A DNA stretch of 64,000 nt, taken from Nitrosomonas sp. Nm33 (GTDB lineage Bacteria; Pseudomonadota; Gammaproteobacteria; Burkholderiales; Nitrosomonadaceae). The position numbers and the translations under genes were made by a program. Where the stretch lies: NCBI RefSeq assembly GCF_900107265.1, contig NZ_FNPJ01000001.1, positions 1 to 64,000 on the forward strand, given 5' to 3'. The notes under the pieces are model-generated. The model made no database searches. It had not been told where the DNA came from and worked only from the letters and a program-made list of their open reading frames with translations. Below, in pieces: positions 11,399-28,026 of the stretch (within the stretch, counting starts at the first letter, position 1; every line of letters starts with the position of its first letter).

Positions 11399-13216
11399 TT
11401 GTCAGCAGCAGCGTTTGACGGCAAAGTTTTTTCATCGACCTTGCCCACTCTGCCGGGTGTGTATCGCATGCTGAATGCAGCAGGAGAAGTTATTTATGTT
11501 GGTAAAGCGATCGATCTCAAGAAGCGGGTATCATCTTATTTTCAGAAATCAAACCTGAGTCCGCGTATACAACTCATGGTATCGCAGATTGCAGGAATTG
11601 AAACGACGATCACGCGTTCCGAAGCTGAAGCGCTGCTGCTCGAGAATAACCTCATCAAGAGCCTTGCACCTCGTTATAACATATTATTCAGGGATGACAA
11701 GTCCTATCCGTATTTAATGTTAAGTCAGCATACTTATCCACGCTTGACCTTTTATCGGGGTGCTCTGGATAATCAACATCAGTATTTTGGTCCTTTTCCC
11801 AATGCAGGCGTTGTCAGAGAGAGTATTCATCTTTTGCAAAAGGTGTTTCGTTTGCGTACCTGCGAAGATAGCGTTTTCAATCATCGTACTCGACCTTGTC
11901 TGCTTTATCAGATCAAGCGTTGTAGCGGGCCTTGCGTCAATCTCATCTCGCAAGATGAGTATCATGAAGATGTCAAAAGTGCCTCACTTTTTTTACAAGG
12001 CAAACAAAGCGAAGTATTGAAAGATATCGCTGAAAAAATGCAGACAGCTTCCGATCGAATGGAATATGAGCAAGCTGTAGTTTTCCGAGATCAAATGCAG
12101 GCGCTGCGGAAAATCCAGGAAAAACAGTTTGTTGATAGTGGTAAAGCGCTCGATGCGGATGTCATTGCTTGCGCTTTCCTGCATGATGATATTGAAAGAG
12201 TCTGCGTCAATTTAGTGATGATCAGAGGCGGGCGGCACCTGGGAGATAAGAGTTTTTTCCCACAAAATGTGCAAGGATATGAAATTGCTGATGTGTTAGA
12301 GGCATTTATAGCGCAGCATTATCTAAATCGACATGTACCACCTTTGATTATTATCGGTGAAAAAATCCGCCTGAATATTCTGCAACCTTTATTGAGCGAG
12401 CAGGCTGGCCGTAAGATAGCAATCGTTCTTAATCCAGTCGGGGAACGACGTGTATGGCTGAATATGGCGACCGAGAATGCACGGTTGGCATTAAAGCAGA
12501 GGCTGCTAAGACAAGCTAGCCAGGAAGAGCGGTTACAGGCTTTACAGCAGGCTCTGAATCTACCTGGCCTTGGGCGTATCGAATGTTTCGATATCAGTCA
12601 TACTATGGGTGAAGCAACGGTGGCTTCTTGTGTGGTTTATGACAATTTTTCTATGCGTAACAATGAATATCGCCGCTACAATATTACTGGCATCATGCCT
12701 GGTGATGATTATGGGGCGATGCGCCAAGTACTTTTAAGGCGCTATGGCAAAATAGCTCAAGAGGATGGTAAATTGCCTGATCTGATTCTGATTGATGGCG
12801 GAAAAGGGCAGGTCAGTGCAGCTCAGGAAATATTGATTGAGCTGGGTCTCAATGATATTCCCTTTCTTGGAGTAGCCAAAGGGGAAGGGCGTAAACCTGG
12901 CCTGGAGCAATTGATTTTCCCATCAACTGAAAAGCCGTTAAAATTGCCGGCGGATCATGCTGGTTTACATCTCATCCAACAGATTCGTGATGAAGCACAT
13001 CGTTTTGCCATTCAGGGACATCGCGCCAGACGTAATAAATCACGCACCCATTCTAGTCTTGAACAGATTGCTGGTGTGGGCGCAAAACGACGCCAAAGTT
13101 TGTTAGGACGATTTGGCGGGTTGAAGGGCGTACTGAGCGCAAGCATTGAGGAATTGCAACAGACAGAGGGTATCAGTCGGGCGCTGGCGGAGAGGATTTA
13201 CCGGGAACTGCATTGA
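11399..13216 (+). CDS. uvrC: Excinuclease ABC subunit C
   Basis: A 605-residue UvrC that makes the dual incisions of nucleotide excision repair. It has an N-terminal GIY-YIG nuclease (GVYRML...EVIYVGKA, about 18-40), a UVR motif around residues 200-240, an RNase H-like C-terminal nuclease ([11 protein letters not shown] and [10 protein letters not shown]) and terminal tandem HhH motifs ([10 protein letters not shown] and [10 protein letters not shown]). The start appears to be TTG at 11399, since no suitable ATG precedes the conserved [19 protein letters not shown] lies about 10 bases upstream. It is followed by pgsA, as in many Proteobacteria. Confidence 0.95.
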
Positions 13217-13292
13217 ATCTGCTCAAAAAATAAATGACAACGACGGGATTGTCGTGCTGCATTAATAACAGAATCGACACTTGAATACTATC

Positions 13293-13865
13293 ATGCCAAT
13301 GAATCTTCCTAATCTGCTGACATGGCTACGGATACTCGCAATTCCGTTATTTGTCGGGATTTTTTATTTACCTCCGAGCTGGTTATCACCATTCGGACAG
13401 AATCTGATTGCTACCATCATTTTTAGCGGGGCGGCGATTACTGATTGGCTGGATGGTTATCTGGCTCGCACCCTTAATCAAACCTCAGCTTTTGGCGCTT
13501 TTCTTGATCCTGTCGCAGATAAATTGATGGTTGCGGCGGCCTTGATTGTGTTGGTGTATTTAGAAAGGCTGGATGCACCGATAGCAGTGGTTATCATTGG
13601 CCGTGAAATTACCGTTTCAGCATTACGCGAATGGATGGCGCAAATTGGTAAAGCCAAGAGTGTAGCTGTCTCTTTTTTGGGAAAAATAAAAACTGTTTCA
13701 CAAATGATAGCTATTCCATTATTGCTTTATCACGAAAAAATCGAAGATTATTTTGATCCTCAAATAGTAGGAACCTGGCTTATTTATCTGGCTGCAATCT
13801 TAACGTTATGGTCAATGATTTATTATTTAAAAGCAGCTATTCCACAAGCACTTAAGCAATCATAA
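13293..13865 (+). CDS. pgsA: CDP-diacylglycerol--glycerol-3-phosphate 3-phosphatidyltransferase
   Basis: An integral membrane enzyme of the CDP-alcohol phosphatidyltransferase family that makes phosphatidylglycerol phosphate. The signature D-x2-DG-x2-AR-x8-G-x3-D-x3-D is present as DWLDGYLAR followed by GAFLDPVADK (about 55-80). Several membrane segments cover the rest. The start is uncertain: TTG 13281, ATG 13293 and ATG 13299 are all in frame, and MNLPNLLTWLRI begins the conserved part. Its stop overlaps by a few bases the stop of the convergent gene on the other strand. Confidence 0.93.
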   Translation: MPMNLPNLLTWLRILAIPLFVGIFYLPPSWLSPFGQNLIATIIFSGAAITDWLDGYLARTLNQTSAFGAFLDPVADKLMVAAALIVLVYLERLDAPIAVVIIGREITVSALREWMAQIGKAKSVAVSFLGKIKTVSQMIAIPLLLYHEKIEDYFDPQIVGTWLIYLAAILTLWSMIYYLKAAIPQALKQS

Positions 13866-14462
13866 CTCTGTCGCATGATTCAGCTTGATATGCTTCATGC
13901 GATCAGTTCGACTTTGATTTGACGGGGCTGGTTGTGTAGTGTCGAACGCTGTCGGTACCGTTACGCCACTGCGCTTGGCAAAGGTGAAGACTGCCACGAG
14001 ATTGATCGCATGCCACGTATTGTTCGGATTACGTTCGTAGGGTTTTCTGTAGGCGTCAAGCGCATGCGCCAGCGCCTCTCTGCTCTCGATGCAGTGGGGA
14101 TCCCGAGTATCGATGGCGATTTGCTTGTAGGCACGACCAATCAGACCAGCCAGCTCACTCCATTCTTCATCGCTCTCGGGAAGGCCCTCTAACGCCTTTT
14201 GTGCCACCGCGATGGCTGCGGTGGCTTGCCCTGTCTCGATTAGTGCCTGGGCGTGTAATCTCCGCACTGTGGTGGCGTTCGGCTGCACGCGTATAACGCG
14301 CTTGCTTAGTTTTGTGAGCAGGTTAAACTCACGTAGGTTTTTGAGATCGTTGGCGAGCCTCTGTGCTGCCTGAGAGTCTGTGCTTCCGGCTGGCCAGTGA
14401 GGGCGTTGTAGTAGCTCTCGAGCGCGTCGGACCATTGTGTCGGCATCCTGTCCCTTGCTCAT
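13860..14462 (-). CDS. TRAFs-binding/TPR-like helical protein, possibly truncated
   Basis: About 200 residues, largely helical, with TPR-like repeats (about 50-110) and a segment (LIGRAYKQIAIDT, then ALDAYRKPYERNPNNTWHAINLVAVFTFAK) resembling the TRAFs-binding/TPR-S region found in bacterial multidomain signalling and conflict proteins. A GAGGAG ribosome site supports the ATG at 14462. Homologues of this type are usually longer; here the frame runs into the 3' end of pgsA and stops after a low-complexity tail, so the C-terminus may be lost. It sits 10 bp after the hydrolase gene and is almost certainly co-transcribed. Codon use is visibly more GC-rich than in neighbours. Family assignment is tentative. 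Confidence 0.6.
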   Translation of the reverse strand: MSKGQDADTMVRRARELLQRPHWPAGSTDSQAAQRLANDLKNLREFNLLTKLSKRVIRVQPNATTVRRLHAQALIETGQATAAIAVAQKALEGLPESDEEWSELAGLIGRAYKQIAIDTRDPHCIESREALAHALDAYRKPYERNPNNTWHAINLVAVFTFAKRSGVTVPTAFDTTQPAPSNQSRTDRMKHIKLNHATEL

Positions 14463-14472
14463 AAGTGACTCC

Positions 14473-15411
14473 TCAGAGACCAAGCATCTTGAGCAAGGCG
14501 CACCGTACCTCATCATGCGCGAGATATTTTACGACTGAATGGCGCCAGGTTCCTTCATTAGTGACGCTGAGATCCTGGATGCGTTCGATGCCTCCGTCGC
14601 AAAAATCGTTTGCAATCTTTGGGTCGGCTCCACACACGACGTCCAGGTGGTCGTAGACGTTGACCCATTGGGTCTTAATTTGTGATCGGGGGTAACCGTT
14701 GTCCCGAGTCCATTCCGGCTTGAAACAATCTTGTACTTCGTCAATGCCGAGTGGGCTGCCCATCGTCATCAAGCTATCAATGGCTGGGCAGCCAGGAACG
14801 CGTTTAAGGCAATCGTAGGCGACCATGGTTCCCATGCTGTGACTTACGACGATATGCGGACCGTTGGTCTTTACCTTTTTCAAATCATTGATAAAACGAC
14901 TGCGGACTTCCTCTTGTACGCGATATGTTGTTCCCGGACGGGGGGAGAACTCCTTATTAAAAAGGTAGAGATAGGCATCGCGAATCTTGGCATCCATGAT
15001 CTTCTTCTTGATGGACCAAGGGAGAGGAATACGCTCGAGCTTAGTGGCTTTGTCGTCAGTCGACCCATTCTCGCTTGCATTTGCGATTTCTGCATCGCTC
15101 ATGCGTGTTTCATAAGCGCGCATGGCTTGTAGGAAGTGTTTCTCTTTGTCGGTGGTCCCCACGGGAATTTGGGCATTCCCGCTTGCATCGAGTTCCTGGA
15201 GAATCCTCTCGAGGGTACTCTCGTAATCGACTACATTCGGATCTGGTTCTGGATACAGCACATCCGCCCAGTAAACCATTGTTGTTGTGACTCCCTGGTC
15301 ACCTAAATCAATACCGCTAATTCCTTTGGCTAAGGCATGTCTCCATATTTGGTGGAGTTTGTCTGGCTCGGGTTTATTTGAAAGGCCGTGAATGAAGGTG
15401 ATGTGCGGCAT
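14473..15411 (-). CDS. Alpha/beta hydrolase (esterase/lipase-like) of an accessory two-gene module
   Basis: About 312 residues with an alpha/beta-hydrolase fold. An N-terminal strand leads into an oxyanion-type motif (ITFIHGLSNKP), the nucleophile elbow is SHSMGT with the central Ser, and later NVYDHLDVVCG and EGTWRHS could supply the acid and His. No signal peptide is seen, so a cytoplasmic enzyme is likely. The ATG at 15411 is preferred because MPHITFIHG is where conservation should begin; an ATG 27 bases upstream is in frame. The following gene encodes a TRAFs-binding-like protein. The pair lies between pgsA and an IS200 remnant. Substrate unknown. Confidence 0.75.
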   Translation of the reverse strand: MPHITFIHGLSNKPEPDKLHQIWRHALAKGISGIDLGDQGVTTTMVYWADVLYPEPDPNVVDYESTLERILQELDASGNAQIPVGTTDKEKHFLQAMRAYETRMSDAEIANASENGSTDDKATKLERIPLPWSIKKKIMDAKIRDAYLYLFNKEFSPRPGTTYRVQEEVRSRFINDLKKVKTNGPHIVVSHSMGTMVAYDCLKRVPGCPAIDSLMTMGSPLGIDEVQDCFKPEWTRDNGYPRSQIKTQWVNVYDHLDVVCGADPKIANDFCDGGIERIQDLSVTNEGTWRHSVVKYLAHDEVRCALLKMLGL

Positions 15412-19031: not shown

Positions 19032-20114
19032 ATGCCTACTAACAATATTCAGGATCGTGCCATGGGGGCCATCATGGGTGCATTCATTGGTGATGCGCTA
19101 GGTCTGGGTCCCCATTGGTACTACGATCTCAACGAACTTCGTCGCGATTATGGTGACTGGATTGACGGCTATACTGACCCCAAACCTGATCGTTATCATG
19201 CTGTATGCAAAGCTGGTCAGTTATCCCAAGCGGGATTCATTCTGGCGCTTACTCTTCGTTCGCTCGTTGAGTGTGGTGGATATAATGAAGACGACTTCTG
19301 CCGGCGGATGGATGAAGAACTTTTTCCGCTGCTCGATGGCACACCCGTGAGCGGACCTGGGGGCTACACCAGTCAATCGATTCGTGAAGCATGGAGACGT
19401 CGCGTGCAGCAGAAACTACCGTGGGGACAAACCGGTAGTCATGCAGATACTACCGAGGCGATTGAGCGCACACTGGTGATAGCAGTTCGTTACGCGTTCC
19501 AGCCAGATCAGCTTGCTGCAGCCATCACCAATAATACCATGCTGACCCAGAGTGACCATACTGTTGTTTCAATGACGGTGGCCTATGGTGCAGTGTTGGC
19601 TCTTTTAGTTCAAGGACATACTCTTGACGCCGGGTTGTCAGGGAAGCTCATGGAATTGGTAAAAGATGGCAAATTACCTTTTCATGCGGTAACACGCGGT
19701 GATTTGCGGCCCCCACGCCTTGGTGACCCCGATCCCTCGCGTGCCGGTCGCTTTGCTTCCCCAGATGCATTGCTTACACCTTCTTATATGGCGGCAGCTG
19801 TAACAGATTCAGAAATTCAGATAGAGCCGGCATGGAAAGTATCCATTGTCTATGGTATGCCGTGCGCTATCTATCATCAGTTACCGGCTGCTTACTACTT
19901 GGCAGCCCGGTTTCACAATGATTTTGAATCAGCCGTGCTCCATGCGATTAATGGTGGAGGACAAAATCAAGCGCGCGCGATTCTCACTGGCGCACTCGCC
20001 GGTGCACAAACCGGTTTATCCGGAATTCCCCAGCGCTTTTTTGATGGACTTGAAGGGGGCGTTAGTCTTATAAAGTTGGCTGAAGAGCTGGCTTCAAAAG
20101 TAGGTGATCTCTGA
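19032..20114 (+). CDS. ADP-ribosylglycohydrolase (DraG/ARH)-like protein lacking canonical metal ligands
   Basis: A 360-residue all-helical protein of the ADP-ribosyl-GH fold. AFIGDALGLGPHWYYD (17-32) is the recognisable N-terminal motif. Where active ARH enzymes have a T/S-D-D-T metal motif, this protein reads AGQLSQAG (61-68). Where they have GGDxD, it reads GGGQNQA, with QNQ at 311-313. It keeps GALAGAQTGLSGIP afterwards. The binuclear Mg site is therefore probably absent, so classical ADP-ribosyl-arginine hydrolysis is doubtful. It follows fbaB closely and is likely in the same transcript. Confidence 0.8.
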   Translation: MPTNNIQDRAMGAIMGAFIGDALGLGPHWYYDLNELRRDYGDWIDGYTDPKPDRYHAVCKAGQLSQAGFILALTLRSLVECGGYNEDDFCRRMDEELFPLLDGTPVSGPGGYTSQSIREAWRRRVQQKLPWGQTGSHADTTEAIERTLVIAVRYAFQPDQLAAAITNNTMLTQSDHTVVSMTVAYGAVLALLVQGHTLDAGLSGKLMELVKDGKLPFHAVTRGDLRPPRLGDPDPSRAGRFASPDALLTPSYMAAAVTDSEIQIEPAWKVSIVYGMPCAIYHQLPAAYYLAARFHNDFESAVLHAINGGGQNQARAILTGALAGAQTGLSGIPQRFFDGLEGGVSLIKLAEELASKVGDL

Positions 20115-21728: not shown

Positions 21729-23288
21729 ATGCACCAGAAAATTCTTATTCTGGATTTTGGCTCCCAATATACTCAGTTAATTGCTCGTCGTATTCGAGAA
21801 ACTAATGTTTATTGTGAGCTACATCCCTATGATGTCACACCTCAGTTTATTAAAGATTTTTCTCCCATAGGCATTATTCTGTCAGGTGGACCTGCTTCTG
21901 CCTTTATTGAAGACACGCCGCGTGCGCCACAAATCGTTTTCGAGCTGGGCGTTCCGGTGTTGGGTATCTGTTATGGAATGCAGGTAATGGCTGCCCAGTT
22001 GGGCGGAAATGTAGAAAGCGCTAAGAAGCGTGAATTTGGTTATGCCGAATTATATCTGCAGAGTTGTAAACTCTTTGATGAAATTCATGATCGTACAAGT
22101 CCAGAAGGGCAAGCGGTTCTCGATGTATGGATGAGTCATGGCGATAACGTGGTTGGATTGCCTCCCGGCTTTAGCATCATTGCGAGTAATGCTGCAACAC
22201 CAATCGCAGCGATGGCCGATGAGGTGCGGCAATTTTACGGCCTACAATTTCATCCGGAAGTAACGCATACCTTGCAAGGTAAAGTTATTATTGAGCAATT
22301 CGTTCATAACATTTGCGCAGCTGACTATGATTGGAATATGCCAGATTATGTCGAAGAATCGATTAGCAGAATTCAAGCTAAGGTTGGCAAAGACAAAGTA
22401 ATCCTGGGTTTGTCGGGCGGTGTGGATTCTTCTGTTGCGGCTGTACTTATCCATCGGGCAATTGGTGATCAACTTACCTGTGTATTTGTGGATAACGGTT
22501 TATTACGTCAGCATGAAGCTGAGCAGGTTATGGAAATATTCACTAAGAATCTCAATGTGAAGGTAATTCACATTGATGCAAGCGGGCAATTCTTGGAGCA
22601 ATTACAGGGTGTTACTGATCCTGAGCAAAAGCGCCGTATTATAGGCCGGGAATTTGTCGAGGTATTCCAGCGTGAATCAGAAAAAATTACCAATGCCAAA
22701 TGGTTAGCGCAAGGCACTATTTATCCGGATGTGATTGAATCTGCAGGCAGCCAAACCAAGAAAGCCCATACGATCAAATCTCATCATAATGTAGGCGGTC
22801 TCCCTGACACGCTGCACCTTAAATTACTCGAGCCCCTGCGTGAACTATTTAAGGATGAAGTTCGTGAACTAGGTTTGGTCTTGGGTCTACCTCATGATAT
22901 GGTCTTTCGTCACCCTTTTCCTGGACCTGGATTGGGAGTCAGAATTTTAGGTGAAGTAAAACATGAATATGCCGATCTTTTACGCCAGGCAGATGCAATT
23001 TTTATAGAGGAACTCAAAGCTTCCGGCTGGTATGAACGAACCTCTCAGGCCTTTGCTGTATTTTTACCGATAAAATCAGTAGGAGTAATGGGCGATGGTC
23101 GGAGCTATGAGTATGTAATCGCATTGCGTGCCATCCAAACCCAGGATTTCATGACTGCTCACTGGGCAGAATTGCCTTATACATTGCTAGGCAAGGTTTC
23201 TAACCGAATTATTAATGAAGTGCGTGGTATCAACCGGGTTGTATACGATATTTCTGGCAAACCACCCGCGACGATTGAGTGGGAATGA
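21729..23288 (+). CDS. guaA: GMP synthase (glutamine-hydrolysing)
   Basis: A 519-residue enzyme that aminates XMP to GMP. A class I glutamine amidotransferase domain (about 1-200, nucleophile in GICYGMQ, His-Glu in FHPEV) is followed by an ATP pyrophosphatase domain (P-loop [11 protein letters not shown]) and the C-terminal dimerisation domain ending in PPATIEWE. The last 13 bases before the stop region form the left attachment repeat of the downstream island, so the stop codon TGA is supplied by the island. The coding sequence itself is intact. Confidence 0.97.
23274..23286 (+). repeat. Left attachment repeat (attL-like) within guaA
   Basis: ATTGAGTGGGAAT, encoding the conserved C-terminal I-E-W-E of GMP synthase. 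It is identical to 26551-26563. Confidence 0.8.
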
Positions 23289-23596
23289 TCCCGTGTCCGG
23301 CATTGACCGGCACCAAGGAGCATTAAATCACCTCTAAGCCCGCGTAAATGCGGGCTTTTTTCATTTTTGGCTTGGCACCGTCTGGCAAATTTTCGCATCG
23401 CTAAGCACTCCGTTTTTATGGCATGGTAGATGGTACGATCTGAACCTGATGCCATGTTCGGCACTCGATACCATGCAGCCCATAACCGGTTTTTCATGGT
23501 ATTGAATCATAGCAACTAATTGATTTATAGGGGGTTTATAGGGGGAATGCGGAGCATTTTGAGCATGGTATTTTTAAGTGGAGACCCAACCCGATC
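23289..23596. other. Island left-end non-coding region
   Basis: Apart from the terminator there is no gene. The motif CATGGTA or its complement TACCATG recurs around 23422, 23474, 23495 and 23565, and similar GGTATTTTTCATGG occurs near the right end at about 26476. Such scattered short repeats are what integrase arm-type sites look like, but this is only suggestive. Confidence 0.4.
23336..23361 (+). terminator. Rho-independent terminator after guaA
   Basis: An 8-bp perfect stem AAGCCCGC/GCGGGCTT (23336-23343 and 23350-23357) with a 6-base loop is followed by a T run. It lies inside the island, separating guaBA from the cargo. Confidence 0.85.
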
Positions 23597-23845
23597 ATGC
23601 TGACTGATACCAAGCTGCGCAACCTCAAGCCAAAGGACAAGCTCTACAAGGTGAATGACCGTGACGGCCTCTACGTGGCCGTCACGCCTGCTGAGATTAT
23701 GGCGGAGAAGTTTAGCGCTGACCCAACATATGTTTCTGAGCTTTTTGTTGAAATTCTGCGTGATGGTGATCAAGGAGAAATTGAAATTCTATTTCGCCAA
23801 ATTGCAATGAGTCTGGAAAAGAATAAACTACCAAAAGATAACTAA
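23597..23845 (+). pseudogene. Integrase N-terminal remnant fused in frame to an unrelated short segment
   Basis: The first about 32 residues (LTDTKLRNLKPKDKLYKV, then DRDGLYVAVTPA) are the start of the DUF4102 arm-binding domain of P4-type tyrosine integrases. Instead of continuing, the frame passes into about 50 residues starting EIMAEKFSADPTYVSELF that do not belong to an integrase. The second half has a helical look and vaguely resembles the front half of HTH addiction-module antidotes. The catalytic core is absent, so it cannot recombine DNA. Whether the 82-residue hybrid is expressed is unknown. Confidence 0.7.
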
Positions 23846-23877
23846 TGGACTTGTCTTAAAGGATATAAGGGGGGGAA

Positions 23878-25224
23878 ATGCCAATTTCTGCTAATCATAG
23901 GTTCCGCAACACATACCACTTTACGTCTTTAGAGAACCTTGAATCAATAATCGATAACGGAATTTTTTCAACTAATCAGAAACTCGCTCGCGGAATTACG
24001 CACGTAAACGTTGCTGAGCAGGGGATACAAGGGCGCAGGGCGCTGATGCAAGTGCCTGGCACAAATGGTCGTTGTGTGCATGATTATGTACCATTCTACT
24101 TTGCTAAGAAGACGCCTATGCAACTGGCTGTTCTTCACAAGAAGAATGTTGATCAGCAGTTTATCATCTATTTATCAGTGCCAATATTATTGCTGGAGTC
24201 TAGGCCTGGAGCGTATTTTACGAATGCTTCGGCGAATACCGAAGTTCCGCCGAATTTCTTTTCCGGAAACCAATCGCACCAGCTTGATCAGCTAGATTGG
24301 CGAACGATTGATAGTGATCGTTGGAGATATGACAACGATGATGAGAGGCATCGAAAGATGGTAGAGCTATTGCTGCCTGATCATGTCCCCTTAGGTGAGA
24401 TTAATCAGATAATTACTTGGAATAGATCTATATCGGATATTGTGAGGCAGATTTTTCAGAATAAAGGAGTTGCCGCACCTGCTGTGGTTGAGGGGAATTT
24501 TCAGCACTACTACGGCGAGCCTGGGAACTGGGGGACCTCTTTGGTGACGGGACCCTTCTTTTTAAAGTACTCTTTTGATGAAGTGGTTTCTGGTGTGGTG
24601 TCCTTTCAAAGGCAAGTGAGGCCTAAATTTCAGAGTTTGGGTGAGGCTTTGCAAGCTGTCCGGGCGAGTTTCACTGCTATTAAAGAACTTGAAGATATTG
24701 ATGGATTAGGTGCAAATTACGGTCCGCATAATGAAGATGTTGGCGCGCATAGTCGACGTGTTGCTGGTCTTGTGATGAATTCACCTGAATATAATCAGCT
24801 AGATCCTGTTCATCGTGAAGTATTGGAGATGGCGGCATACCTTCACGATATAGGTAAAGGGCCGAAAACTCGCTGGGCTAACAATTTTATGGATAAGGCT
24901 GATGGCGAGCATCCAAAAAAATCCCTGCCTATGTTGAAGCGAATTTTGACAGAGGATTTGCCCGTCCTCCCGCCTGATCTAGTGCGAAAGATTGTGATGC
25001 TGGTGACGTATGATGATTTGCTTGGTGAAATCGTAGCCAAGGGAAGGAACAAGAGTCAGTTGTTTGATATAGTTACCTCTCCTGAGGATATCAATATGTT
25101 GGTGGCCTTAAGTAAGGCTGATATTGGTTCTTTAAATCAAATTTGGTTGGCGCAGGTTTCAGGTGGAATAGATGTTCTCAGGAATGAGGTGCTCCAAAGG
25201 TTACAAGGTAACGTACTATGGTAG
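23878..25224 (+). CDS. DarT-like DNA ADP-ribosyltransferase fused to an HD-domain
   Basis: A 448-residue two-domain protein. The N-terminal part (about 8-240) matches DarT (DUF4433), which uses NAD+ to ADP-ribosylate thymidine in single-stranded DNA: YHFTSLENL (13-21), the QGRRA block (51-55), DYVPFYFAKKTPM (69-81) and a candidate catalytic Glu at 163 (RKMVELLLPDHVP). The C-terminal part (about 265-440) is an HD phosphohydrolase-like domain with H291, H323-D324 (YLHDIGKG), H345 and D415 as likely metal ligands. Standard DarT is about 210 residues and has no HD domain. A GGGGGGG ribosome site precedes the ATG. The stop overlaps the next gene's start by 7 bases, giving tight coupling to its presumed antitoxin. 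Confidence 0.85.
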   Translation: MPISANHRFRNTYHFTSLENLESIIDNGIFSTNQKLARGITHVNVAEQGIQGRRALMQVPGTNGRCVHDYVPFYFAKKTPMQLAVLHKKNVDQQFIIYLSVPILLLESRPGAYFTNASANTEVPPNFFSGNQSHQLDQLDWRTIDSDRWRYDNDDERHRKMVELLLPDHVPLGEINQIITWNRSISDIVRQIFQNKGVAAPAVVEGNFQHYYGEPGNWGTSLVTGPFFLKYSFDEVVSGVVSFQRQVRPKFQSLGEALQAVRASFTAIKELEDIDGLGANYGPHNEDVGAHSRRVAGLVMNSPEYNQLDPVHREVLEMAAYLHDIGKGPKTRWANNFMDKADGEHPKKSLPMLKRILTEDLPVLPPDLVRKIVMLVTYDDLLGEIVAKGRNKSQLFDIVTSPEDINMLVALSKADIGSLNQIWLAQVSGGIDVLRNEVLQRLQGNVLW

Positions 25225-26366
25225 AGTTTGTTTCGGGAGATTTTTTCGAATTTGATGCAGACATCATGATTAACACGGTTAACTGTGTTGGTGTGATGGG
25301 GGCTGGTGTTGCGCTCGCGTTCAAGAAACGATTTCCTGAAATGTTCGATGATTATGTGGAGAAATGCCGTTCGGGAGTTGTTCGACCTGGAGCTCCTTCT
25401 GTCTGGATTCAAAAAGATATAATTTCTAAAGAAATTGAGATAGTAAATTTCCCCACTAAAGATCACTGGAAGAACCCATCTGAGTATTATTACATTGATG
25501 ATGGGTTGAAATGGCTTTCTACTTACCTTGATGATAAAGATGGGAAGGTTGTGACACTTCCTGCGTTAGGCTGCGGTCATGGTGGGTTAGATTGGGATAG
25601 AGTGCGGACTATGATTATTAATAGGCTGCAAGATTCACCCGCACATATATATGTGTTTGAGCCTAATGACTCAGTGAAGGCCGGTCATATGAAGGCGGAA
25701 TCCGCTGATTATGAGCGGCTTCTTAGCTCGGTAGGGGCTGGGGTTGTAAAATCTATTTCTGATGAATATCCGCAAAACTTGCGTAAATATACAAAAAAAG
25801 ATTTGTATTTCTATCCAAAAGATAAAAAAAATTTCCGCTACGACTACTCATTAATTTGCAGTAGTAAACCCACAAGGCAGGAAGTTGAGGCTGTACGGAG
25901 GTTTATTGACTTTTGTTTTCTAGAAAAGCGCAGTGTTTTGTTGGGGGGGACGGTTTTTGAGAAAAAACTTGCTTTTGAATTTTCCGCTAAAGGCCTCGTC
26001 TGCGGCTGTGTTCTACCATCTGGAATCTATGAGTCTGTAAAGAAAGTATCATTTGTCAGGCGGGAGGGAAAACCTAATTTGCTGTCAATAGGTAATCCGG
26101 TAGTTGCTTTTGATAAAAAAGAATTCATGCCTTCTGTTTTTGCGAGAATTCATCTTTCTAGGAAGGCTGTTTTTTTTGCTAGCAAGCTTGCTTGGTTGGC
26201 AAAGTTCAAGAGTCAATTTGCGCGACTATCGCTTGATGCATATTATTATGCATCACAAGATAGCTCACCTGAGGATGTTGCTGCTGTCTCAGATATCGGA
26301 GCGGAAAAATTTGATTTTGAATTTCAGCTACAAAAGCTATTCTTGGATCTTGAACACAAAGATTGA
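25218..26366 (+). CDS. DarG-like macrodomain protein with C-terminal DprA/SLOG-like domain
   Basis: A 382-residue presumed antitoxin. Residues 1-155 are a DarG-type macrodomain, which removes ADP-ribose from DNA: NTVNCVGVMGAGVALAFK (19-36), NFPTKDHW with Lys81 at the position of the DarG catalytic Lys, and ALGCGHGGLDW (116-126). The C-terminal part is unlike usual DarG. About 205-320 reads as a Rossmann unit of DprA/SLOG type: LLGGTVFEKKLAFE (241-254), CVLPSGIYE (264-272) and LLSIGNP...RIHLS, which echo the G-rich, VLxxGI and SE-P...RNR-I-GLS steps of DprA. SLOG domains bind nucleotides or nucleic acid. The SLOG call is inference from motif order. Confidence 0.8.
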   Translation: MVEFVSGDFFEFDADIMINTVNCVGVMGAGVALAFKKRFPEMFDDYVEKCRSGVVRPGAPSVWIQKDIISKEIEIVNFPTKDHWKNPSEYYYIDDGLKWLSTYLDDKDGKVVTLPALGCGHGGLDWDRVRTMIINRLQDSPAHIYVFEPNDSVKAGHMKAESADYERLLSSVGAGVVKSISDEYPQNLRKYTKKDLYFYPKDKKNFRYDYSLICSSKPTRQEVEAVRRFIDFCFLEKRSVLLGGTVFEKKLAFEFSAKGLVCGCVLPSGIYESVKKVSFVRREGKPNLLSIGNPVVAFDKKEFMPSVFARIHLSRKAVFFASKLAWLAKFKSQFARLSLDAYYYASQDSSPEDVAAVSDIGAEKFDFEFQLQKLFLDLEHKD

Positions 26367-26550
26367 GGCTAACTGAGTGTGCTTTGCTGTTTTGCAGCCT
26401 AGCTCTGTATTGAGGTAAGTTGAAATTGCTGTTGGTTCAGATGGTATGCAGATCCGGGTGCAAAATATCAGTTGTGGTATTTTTCATGGTTCTGTAAGTC
26501 GATACCTTTGTAAGAAATTGTTTTTAATGTATTTTTTGTTTTTGTTTATA

Positions 26551-26563
26551 ATTGAGTGGGAAT
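26551..26563 (+). repeat. Right attachment repeat (attR-like)
   Basis: ATTGAGTGGGAAT, identical to the guaA-terminal repeat at 23274-23286, followed by AA so that the ghost of the original stop codon TAA is preserved. Confidence 0.8.
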
Positions 26564-26564
26564 A

Positions 26565-26667
26565 ATTTTATTTCCAAATTAAATGTGACGCGCAGGTGAG
26601 CCGCAGGCAGTATGAATAATACGGCAAAGAAAAACCGACAAAGTCAGGTTTGATTTAGAAATGGAAT
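26565..26667 (-). repeat. Dispersed short repeat, copy 3 (uninterrupted)
   Basis: Read on the reverse strand it aligns along its length with 3569-3912 minus the inserted element: an ATTCCATTTCTAAA start, CCTGA-TTTGTCGG and GCCGTATTATTCATACTG centre, then a GCGGCTCACC-type right half and TTTGGAAATAAAAT end. It lies immediately beyond the right attachment repeat. Confidence 0.75.
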
Positions 26668-26725
26668 CAGAAAAAATTACAATTTTATTTTGATAACTGA
26701 TACCACTTGCCTGATTTTATTGAGA

Positions 26726-27034
26726 CTAATAATTTGATTTTTTGAGCTTCTCTTTTAAGCGCTTTCTTCTATTTTCTTTCGGATCAAGTAGAAGAGGGCG
26801 ATAGATTTCTACTCGATCGCCATTTTGTAGAATAGTCCCTGGTTGGGTGAGTTTACTGAAAATACCCATTTTTTGCTTTTCCAAATCAATTTCTGTAAAT
26901 ATCTCTCTTATTCCAGATAAGGTAATGGCCTGTTCGATCGTTGTGCCGCTGGGAACATAAAAACGTTTAAGAAACTGACATTGTGGAAGTGCATATGCCA
27001 CTTCTACCTCGATTTGTTCAGTCGCGTGATCCAT
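26726..27034 (-). CDS. ratB: RnfH/RatB family ubiquitin-like protein
   Basis: A 102-residue beta-grasp protein of the RnfH (formerly RatB) family. PSGTTIEQAITLSGI (about 28-42), LEKQKMGIFSKL and LQNGDRVEIYRPLLLDPKENRRKR are the family signatures. It overlaps the 3' end of ratA by 17 bases, the usual ratAB arrangement upstream of and divergent from smpB. Its biochemical role is unsettled; the toxin-antitoxin naming is not well supported. Confidence 0.9.
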   Translation of the reverse strand: MDHATEQIEVEVAYALPQCQFLKRFYVPSGTTIEQAITLSGIREIFTEIDLEKQKMGIFSKLTQPGTILQNGDRVEIYRPLLLDPKENRRKRLKEKLKKSNY

Positions 27035-27479
27035 AAATTACTTCAGCGCGTTCTACGAAAGCTTCTACTAAACTATTAGCAATAACATAAAACACGGGTC
27101 CTACCAGTTTCTCTAACAGCTTGTGAGAGAATGTATAATGCAGGTGAAATTCTATTTTGCAAGCATTCTCCGATAAAGGAATAAAGCGCCATAGGCCATC
27201 CAGATGCTCAAACGGTCCATCTAATAAATTCATTTTGATCTGCCCAGGAGTCATGTCGGTCGGTCCTGGTGGTTGACGTTTATTTTCTGTGGTAAAGCTA
27301 TGCTTGATGTGATGATAATTAATATGGACGGTTGCATGCGCAATTTCGTCACTTTGAAGCTTAACCGATGCGCCATCACACCAAGGCAGAAATTTTGGAT
27401 AATTTTCAACGGTGTCAACCAAGTTAAACATTTGGCCCGCTGAGTAGCCAACTAGTACTGATTTTTCTATTTCTGCCAT
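27018..27479 (-). CDS. ratA: RatA / COQ10-like START-domain protein
   Basis: A 153-residue single-domain SRPBCC (START-like) protein. The family motif VENYPKFLPWCDGASV (about 25-40), LDGPFEHLDGLWRF (about 85-98) and the C-terminal LVEAFVERAEVIYG are present. Homologues bind ubiquinone and support respiration (COQ10); in E. coli RatA was also reported to bind the 50S subunit. The gene is divergent from smpB, a conserved arrangement. Confidence 0.92.
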   Translation of the reverse strand: MAEIEKSVLVGYSAGQMFNLVDTVENYPKFLPWCDGASVKLQSDEIAHATVHINYHHIKHSFTTENKRQPPGPTDMTPGQIKMNLLDGPFEHLDGLWRFIPLSENACKIEFHLHYTFSHKLLEKLVGPVFYVIANSLVEAFVERAEVIYGSRD

Positions 27480-27582
27480 AAGATTATTAACCTTTTGTTT
27501 TCATCTGAGCCGAAGCTGGAAAAACTGATAAAATAATATAAAAATTTTAGAGTTATTGCCTTTATTCCTGTCATATTTCCAG

Positions 27583-28026
27583 ATGAGTATTGCTCAAAAT
27601 AAAAAAGCGTTCCATGATTATTTTATCGAGGAAAAATACGAAGTAGGTATTGTACTGGAAGGTTGGGAAGTCAAAGCGATTCGTGCGGGACGAATTCAAT
27701 TAAAAGAAGCCTATGTTATCATTCGCAATGGTGAATTATATCTTATTGGTAGTCACGTGAGTCCTTTGCCTACAGCTTCAACCCACATTAATCCTGATCC
27801 AGTACGTACGCGCAAACTACTACTCCATGCAGAGGAGATAGGACGACTAATTGGTAAAGTTGAGCGTGCTGGATACACGCTGGTACCTCTCGATATGCAT
27901 TATAAAGCAGGTAGAATTAAAGTTGAAATAGGTCTTGCCAAAGGTAAAAAACAATACGATAAACGGGAAACTGAGAAACGTAAAGAATGGGAGCGTTCAA
28001 AACAACGTTTGCTACGCGCCCGCTAA
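27583..28026 (+). CDS. smpB: SsrA-binding protein SmpB
   Basis: A 147-residue partner of tmRNA in trans-translation. It shows [24 protein letters not shown] at the start of the OB fold, [14 protein letters not shown], and the basic C-terminal tail [20 protein letters not shown]. The ATG at 27583 gives the standard [10 protein letters not shown] start; an in-frame ATG at 27556 adds nine non-conserved residues. No tmRNA gene is visible nearby. Confidence 0.96.

Follow-up and report, generated by a model that had tools for sequence, protein, structure and literature searches.

A DarT toxin carrying an HD phosphohydrolase domain, next to a predicted macro-DprA-like antitoxin, in a guaA island of Nitrosomonas sp. 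Nm33

What is an HD hydrolase domain doing on a DarT-type toxin, and what kind of antitoxin goes with such a protein? The question is raised by one open reading frame of the window, by which we mean the whole stretch of 64,000 nucleotides from Nitrosomonas sp. Nm33 that was analysed here. The frame lies at positions 23878-25224, as in the first-pass annotation of this DNA, and encodes 448 amino acids from an ATG start without an internal stop. We confirm that its product is an in-frame fusion, in which residues ~4-212 form a DarT ADP-ribosyltransferase and residues ~250-448 a full HD metal-hydrolase domain.

The DarT domain (residues 1-212; 23878-24513, forward strand) is delimited by Pfam, NCBIfam, PADLOC, alignment and predicted structure. 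Residues 13-206 match the Pfam DarT family PF14487 with 132.3 bits (cut-off 22.5, E 2.5e-38), and PADLOC also calls DarT here (E 1.3e-40). The score against the NCBIfam DarT equivalog NF048013 is 133.4 bits, below its cut-off of 150, so the protein is clearly related to DarT but falls outside the equivalog as named. In the AF2 model of the toxin (mean pLDDT 88.2, pTM 0.84), residues 4-212 superpose on Thermus DarT with Z 25.5 and an rmsd of 2.0-2.1 over 201 aligned residues. R53 and E163 are invariant in 12/12 aligned sequences. R53 is aligned with R51 of the Thermus chain, and opposite E163 the crystallised DarT chains have an alanine; these chains we take to be Glu-to-Ala mutants. The DarT landmarks that had been read in the N-terminal part are borne out by the Pfam match, the two invariant residues and the Thermus superposition.

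The HD phosphohydrolase domain (residues 251-448; 24628-25221, forward strand) is supported by Pfam, alignment and predicted structure. Residues 289-373 match Pfam HD PF01966 with 28.7 bits (cut-off 22, E 1.7e-6), and a profile search with the C-terminal half alone, on which the earlier annotation had staked its reading, recovers the HD fold at 30.9 bits. That annotation had placed the domain at residues 265-440; the domain stands, the boundary does not, as the HD module begins near residue 250. A hinge separates the two parts (residues 213-250; 24514-24627, forward strand), with pLDDT below 50 at residues 214-220 and a dN/dS of 0.21-0.26, above that of both domains in the two pairs in which all three could be measured (dS high). 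The HD part evolves under a dN/dS of 0.04-0.08 between the window and four relatives (dS 1.4-2.7, close to saturation), close to the 0.07-0.09 of the DarT part (two measurable pairs, dS high), and in the closest pair, L002 and L055, identity is 92% in the DarT part and 98% in the HD part. Chance joining of frames or an artefact was considered and is ruled out, because 14 relatives (11, plus three from plasmids) align with both parts and the low HD dN/dS indicates purifying selection. Pfam, NCBIfam and PADLOC returned no model for the combination, and a Pfam scan of the toxin at E 10 returned DarT, HD and two weak DUFs, without a nucleotidyltransferase domain.

The metal-site positions of the HD part are conserved. 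H291, H323, D324, H345, D380 and D415 are invariant in 20/20 aligned HD parts (some rows being near-copies), in keeping with the H...HD...H...D set that had been recognised from the letters alone and with the match to HD folds. Position 379 is H or D in all 20 rows, so the members may not all share the same metals or substrate, and the HDIGKG motif is kept across divergent members of the class. In structure, residues 245-448 come closest to 3wfp/3wfo, with a best Z of 15.9 (rmsd 3.5-3.7, 182 aligned); the tool cautions that a helical model may score as high as Z 13 through common arrangement. Ppx/GppA (Z 11.1) and SAMHD1 (Z 9.8) follow, and PgpH also ranks high. The entry 3wfo is named Poly A polymerase and was also retrieved with a CCA-type enzyme (L033) as query, which identifies the top structural hit as an A/CCA-adding tRNA nucleotidyltransferase. 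Overlaying the predicted structure on Thermus DarT and on HD enzymes, as had been proposed, thus gave a match for each half of the toxin.

Kinship of this domain with the HD domain of CCA/A-adding tRNA nucleotidyltransferases is likely, and only likely, because the fold favours the CCA enzymes but sequence scores do not. An hhalign comparison with the E. coli K-12 CCA enzyme covers 131 columns at 28% identity and extends into the part that precedes the HD motif. MAFFT finds a matching residue in that enzyme at every ligand position, while hhalign sets H345 one column away from its nearest histidine. The Duncaniella CCA enzyme has no equivalent of D380. HD-GYP, Ppx and HDIG proteins score 18.8-26.0 bits with the HD model as against 17.5 and 3.5 for CCA enzymes, and reach hhalign probabilities of 94-96 as against 91, the non-CCA matches mostly running over shorter stretches; this ranking used six HD proteins, five of which had been retrieved by HD patterns. 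A profile search of the PDB with the HD part gave E 0.13 or worse. The best non-fusion match to the HD model resembles a CCA enzyme in the L012 genome (E 6e-6) and an HD-GYP response regulator in the L017 genome (E 0.04). The matches in three genomes from the order of the window are confined to model residues 19-83.

The next gene (25218-26366), whose start codon overlaps the toxin gene, encodes the antitoxin. Its first part (residues 1-152; 25218-25673, forward strand) is a DarG macro domain, with 57.2 bits against Pfam macro PF01661 and, for the model of the domain, Z 22.5 against 5m3i (rmsd 1.8, 149 aligned). The NCBIfam DarG model NF048014 scores 243.7 bits, below its cut-off of 250, and is matched over positions 1-211 of 338 only. 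The second part (residues 159-382; 25692-26363, forward strand) is predicted to be a DprA/ShosA-like domain that replaces the usual DarG tail. The prediction draws on HMM comparison and on a model of the antitoxin (mean pLDDT 82.5, pTM 0.63) whose tail matches ShosA (8zva; Z 15.0, rmsd 4.1, 216 aligned) and S. pneumoniae DprA (3uqz; Z 15.0, rmsd 3.1, 194 aligned); as a fold prediction it covers the window's tail alone. Pfam DprA PF02481 matches one of the four tails scanned, that of Sinorhizobium (E 7e-5, 22.5 bits, below the cut-off of 29.6), and does not match those of the window, Klebsiella or Agrobacterium. An HMM of the canonical tail does not match the window antitoxin at E 10, and hhalign gives this pair a probability of 0.1-0.2. 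Among fusion partners, two groups of DprA-type tails lie far apart (hhalign probability 40, E 2.9e-4, 178 columns), and the Desulfosarcina tail (L015) matches the HMMs of both. The canonical tail (motif YGPYA; L005 to L053) presumably resembles Panacea/SocA-type antitoxin domains.

Across loci, the two added modules are shown by sequence comparison to go together, with one exception seen. All 19 HD-DarT partners tested with the two DprA-type HMMs have such a tail (8 of the 19 lying outside the training sets), and the same 19 score below 0 or are not listed with the canonical-tail HMM. The partners at three viral loci (L059, L060, L063) also have it, which brings the count to 22/22 directly behind an HD-DarT; this count includes the identical proteins of L030 and L055 and leaves out the contig-edge loci L029 and L064 and the DarG of L057. 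Conversely, the canonical tail is present in 13/13 DarGs beside stand-alone DarTs, from 21 loci examined (10 of the 13 trained the HMM, and L009 matches weakly), and with the DprA-type HMMs none of these 13 exceeds 2.9 bits. A tblastn search of 72,556 plasmid records found a DprA-type tail in three, precisely those that carry a DarT-HD fusion. The exception comes from Duncaniella muris (L012, 5230-8279), where an HD-DarT is followed by a stand-alone DarT and then by a canonical DarG; in this member of the Bacteroidota, one antitoxin may serve two toxins.

At the E. coli locus L056, the toxin has 75% identity to the window's and 42% to Klebsiella's, while its DarG has 84% identity to Klebsiella's and 44% to the window's; toxin and antitoxin have therefore been exchanged between lineages of the class. 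The annotated toxin and antitoxin genes of this locus (11803-14972) are separated by 581 bases, and the match statistics are the same in five further genomes.

How widespread is the fusion? We read 26 loci: the window, three plasmids (Klebsiella, Sinorhizobium, Agrobacterium), ten genome loci that include Xanthomonas pisi, Vibrio salilacus, Novosphingobium, Thiomargarita, Desulfosarcina, rhizobia, Paracoccus and Duncaniella, eight viral contigs and four E. coli loci. The DarT-HD pair is a rare but widespread mobile class, found in Proteobacteria, Desulfosarcina and Bacteroidota. Scanning genomes with the HD part gave at least 10 fusions among 19 confirmed loci, the other nine being HD-GYP, Ppx-like or HDIG proteins on reading; in viral sequences it gave eight distinct fusions, and three further loci read as CCA enzymes. 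A free-standing family of this HD part, which we also considered, was not what these searches returned: the matches listed are fusions, or HD-GYP, Ppx-like, HDIG and CCA proteins.

Rarity is as marked as recurrence. The fusion was found in the window genome only among 199 relatives, 369 genomes from its class and 398 from its phylum, and in the centre genome only among 297 genomes of the order of G932; these four samples overlap, each contains its own centre, and some of their genomes did not have all first-look candidates scored. Related DNA was present in 11 of 5426 E. coli genomes (three at 80% coverage or more, four read), in a blastn search that may miss divergent copies, and 3 of 22 matching plasmid records have at least 80% coverage. 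Recurrence in plasmids, genomes, viral contigs and E. coli rules out a one-off fusion, and rarity across the four genome samples and E. coli rules out a common DarT subclass. The genome count suggested at the outset accordingly gave a recurrent but rare architecture and no characterised common subclass.

A tree built from 18 HD-DarTs and 15 stand-alone DarTs places the HD-DarTs on one side of a branch, with one change and a support of 92/91; this support falls short of what the program counts as firm, and several long branches were flagged. A single group spanning several phyla is thus favoured by the tree, not proven. Some copies are incomplete: the L016 fusion lacks the DarT start and lies beside an upstream reading frame, DarT is only partly in frame at L019, and L029 is truncated at the edge of its contig. 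At L057 (4825-7714) the DarT-HD gene is split by IS50R and the antitoxin gene is annotated as whole. A separate DarT-like frame of 398 amino acids at L041 (1462-2658) has an extension that matches no HD, DprA-type or canonical-tail HMM (E 1e-3) and possibly represents another DarT architecture.

The cassette of the window sits on a 3.3-kb island at the 3' end of guaA, between two direct repeats. The left one, attL (23274-23289, forward strand), consists of the final 15 bases of guaA and one further base, ATTGAGTGGGAATGAT, and holds the core GAGTGGGA; the right one, attR (26551-26566, forward strand), is ATTGAGTGGGAATAAT, identical to attL at 15/16 positions. At even base composition, a stretch of 3.3 kb should contain about 4e-5 matches of this quality by chance. 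The core corresponds to the guaA integration site of GIsul2-type islands (PMC9376610). Between attL and the toxin gene, an 82-residue frame (23597-23845, forward strand) combines the N-terminal arm domain of a tyrosine integrase with an unrelated tail (residues 2-31 against PF13356 Arm-DNA-bind_3, 20.4 bits, below the 27-bit cut-off) and is probably a scar of island decay. Insertion at the guaA 3' end at GAGTGGGA is shared with GIsul2-like islands; the island of the window differs from GIsul2 in being only 3.3 kb long, in having this remnant instead of an intact integrase and in showing no resistance cargo. No RNA families were found in 23000-27600 and no tRNA in the window, and promoter- and terminator-like sites at the locus are no more frequent than in shuffles. 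A few kilobases upstream of the island, the product of 19032-20114 resembles an ADP-ribosylglycohydrolase-family protein.

In Xanthomonas (L010), Vibrio (L011) and E. coli (L058), the core recurs with similar flanks at a distance of 0.1-2.1 kb behind the cassette. Because the 8-base core by itself is present in L014, L015, L032 and L055 too, weight is given to the longer matches only. tblastn found no guaA in the fetched stretches of 21 fusion loci, and we infer insertion at guaA in L010, L011 and L058 from the att-like sequence alone. Elsewhere the cassette lies among P2-like prophage genes at one locus and beside a prophage integrase at icd at another, and in Sinorhizobium it adjoins a SIR2-family gene. 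In Desulfosarcina (L015, 1783-12610), DarT-HD and its antitoxin are set between HmaA and HmaB/HmaC of an Hma defence operon, with gaps of 3 and 22 bases to the flanking Hma genes on the two sides.

We propose, with moderate confidence, that the cassette is a mobile, HD-bearing defence system of the DarTG class in which the HD domain has phosphohydrolase activity and the antitoxin, through its two halves, reverses the action of the toxin and restrains it. An anti-phage role is probable, judging from the defence and prophage settings and by analogy with the family. According to PMC11481870, DarTG defends against phage by modifying single-stranded DNA, the macro domain of DarG reverses the mark and its tail mimics ssDNA and blocks DarT, and how phage infection frees DarT from DarG is described there as unknown. 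PMC9122126 reports that DprA-like proteins bind ssDNA, serve as antitoxins in ShosTA, SyrTA and RqlHI, and that DprA-type systems are carried on prophages. By family resemblance, the macro domain at rest would remove ADP-ribose from DNA, and the DprA-like half, given its fold and its co-occurrence with HD-DarTs, would restrain the toxin in place of the ssDNA-mimicking DarG tail. Phage replication or ssDNA, to which the DprA-like half may answer, would upset this restraint, and the released DarT would ADP-ribosylate ssDNA as its family does, bringing replication to a stop. Ligand conservation and fold suggest that the HD domain is an active metal-dependent phosphohydrolase of the CCA type (2',3'-cyclic phosphodiesterase, 2'-nucleotidase, phosphatase); the M. 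tuberculosis CCA enzyme uses its HD domain to hydrolyse pNPP, an activity that H298A abolishes (PMC10673834). Acting on nucleotides or nucleic-acid phosphates, the domain could supply a second damaging activity or tune the substrate of the transferase; the substrate, and the choice between adding to the toxin and checking it, are the least certain parts of this explanation.

A more specific two-enzyme version is tentative: the HD domain would turn NADP+ into NAD+ for DarT, or cut the ADP-ribose mark on DNA beyond removal by macro domain or repair, with the DprA-like half as the ssDNA sensor that releases the toxin. Just as doubtful is a role as a docking or control module, gripped by the DprA-like antitoxin half and perhaps sensing a nucleotide, with catalysis incidental. 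HD domains act as sensors in other systems, the metal set varies at position 379, and the two modules occur together in 22 of 23 loci with a tested partner (L012 being the odd one), as a matched pair would. Yet all the other ligands and HDIGKG are kept across divergent members, beyond the needs of a docking surface, and the DprA-like half diverges faster than the HD domain (60-68% against 83-84% identity to L010, L011 and L058). L056, moreover, pairs a window-like toxin with a Klebsiella-like antitoxin, and because it mixes lineages a tight lineage-specific fit is not required.

We think it improbable that the domain is a Cas3''-like nuclease cutting the DNA that DarT has marked, which would make a two-step DNA-damaging toxin. 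Both domains would meet on ssDNA, and Cas3 HD models do match weakly (best E 0.0011, with the HD part alone), but these matches span about 20-65 residues around the HD motif, and in the structural comparison the first ranks go to the HD domains of CCA-type, Ppx/GppA, SAMHD1 and PgpH proteins, with no Cas3 among the 50 matches listed. That the locus is an ordinary DarTG whose C-terminal domain is a functionless passenger on a mobile element would be very surprising: the cassette is mobile and patchy in distribution, but the low HD dN/dS and the invariant ligands speak against it, as does the single group in the DarT tree across several phyla (92/91, not decisive). Catalysis by the HD domain within a DarTG-class defence system remains our preferred reading.

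The kind of system is known, namely DarTG; the HD domain on the toxin and the DprA-like tail on the antitoxin are apparently new, as no description of a DarT-HD protein or of a macro-DprA antitoxin was found in the literature searched, which left preprints and most subscription papers outside. In the part of PMC9503650 at hand, the sole mention of an HD domain is in the reference list. Within that literature, the first-pass annotation was right to call the architecture functionally undescribed; the analysis adds the DprA-like antitoxin tail, the recurrent mobile class and a structural neighbourhood of the HD domain closest to tRNA nucleotidyltransferases. Since the tail has been replaced and the HD domain gained together, two natural DarTG designs are available in which release and control can be compared. 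Should NAD(P) or the DNA mark prove to be the substrate of the HD domain, a second chemical step would be added to DNA ADP-ribosylation, one for which we found no prior description. The two-enzyme reading, if true, would set the class apart among DarTG systems by an extra hydrolase step and a trigger of its own. Copies of the cassette in E. coli prophages make tests simple with laboratory strains.

Among known systems, DarTG2-type modules share with the cassette the DarT fold, the conserved Arg and Glu, a macro antitoxin directly behind the toxin and a mobile or phage-linked setting; they differ in that the toxin here has an HD domain of ~200 residues, the antitoxin tail is DprA-like and both proteins fall below the NCBIfam equivalog cut-offs. 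In its predicted fold and its H-HD-H-[HD]D-D metal pattern the toxin HD domain resembles that of CCA/A-adding tRNA nucleotidyltransferases, but it is attached to DarT and has no nucleotidyltransferase domain beside it. With ShosTA-like systems the cassette shares prophage carriage and an antitoxin half of ShosA/DprA fold (Z 15.0, predicted model). ShosT is a phosphoribosyltransferase, whereas the toxin here is an ADP-ribosyltransferase joined to HD, and the DprA-like half shares a chain with a macro domain. Known DarTs had been taken to be stand-alone, which holds as a rule and fails for Thermosipho africanus DarTG (7omu, a 406-residue chain): there, too, DarT and a further domain form one chain, but the fused domain is the macro antitoxin, in contrast to the HD domain carried by the toxin of the window.
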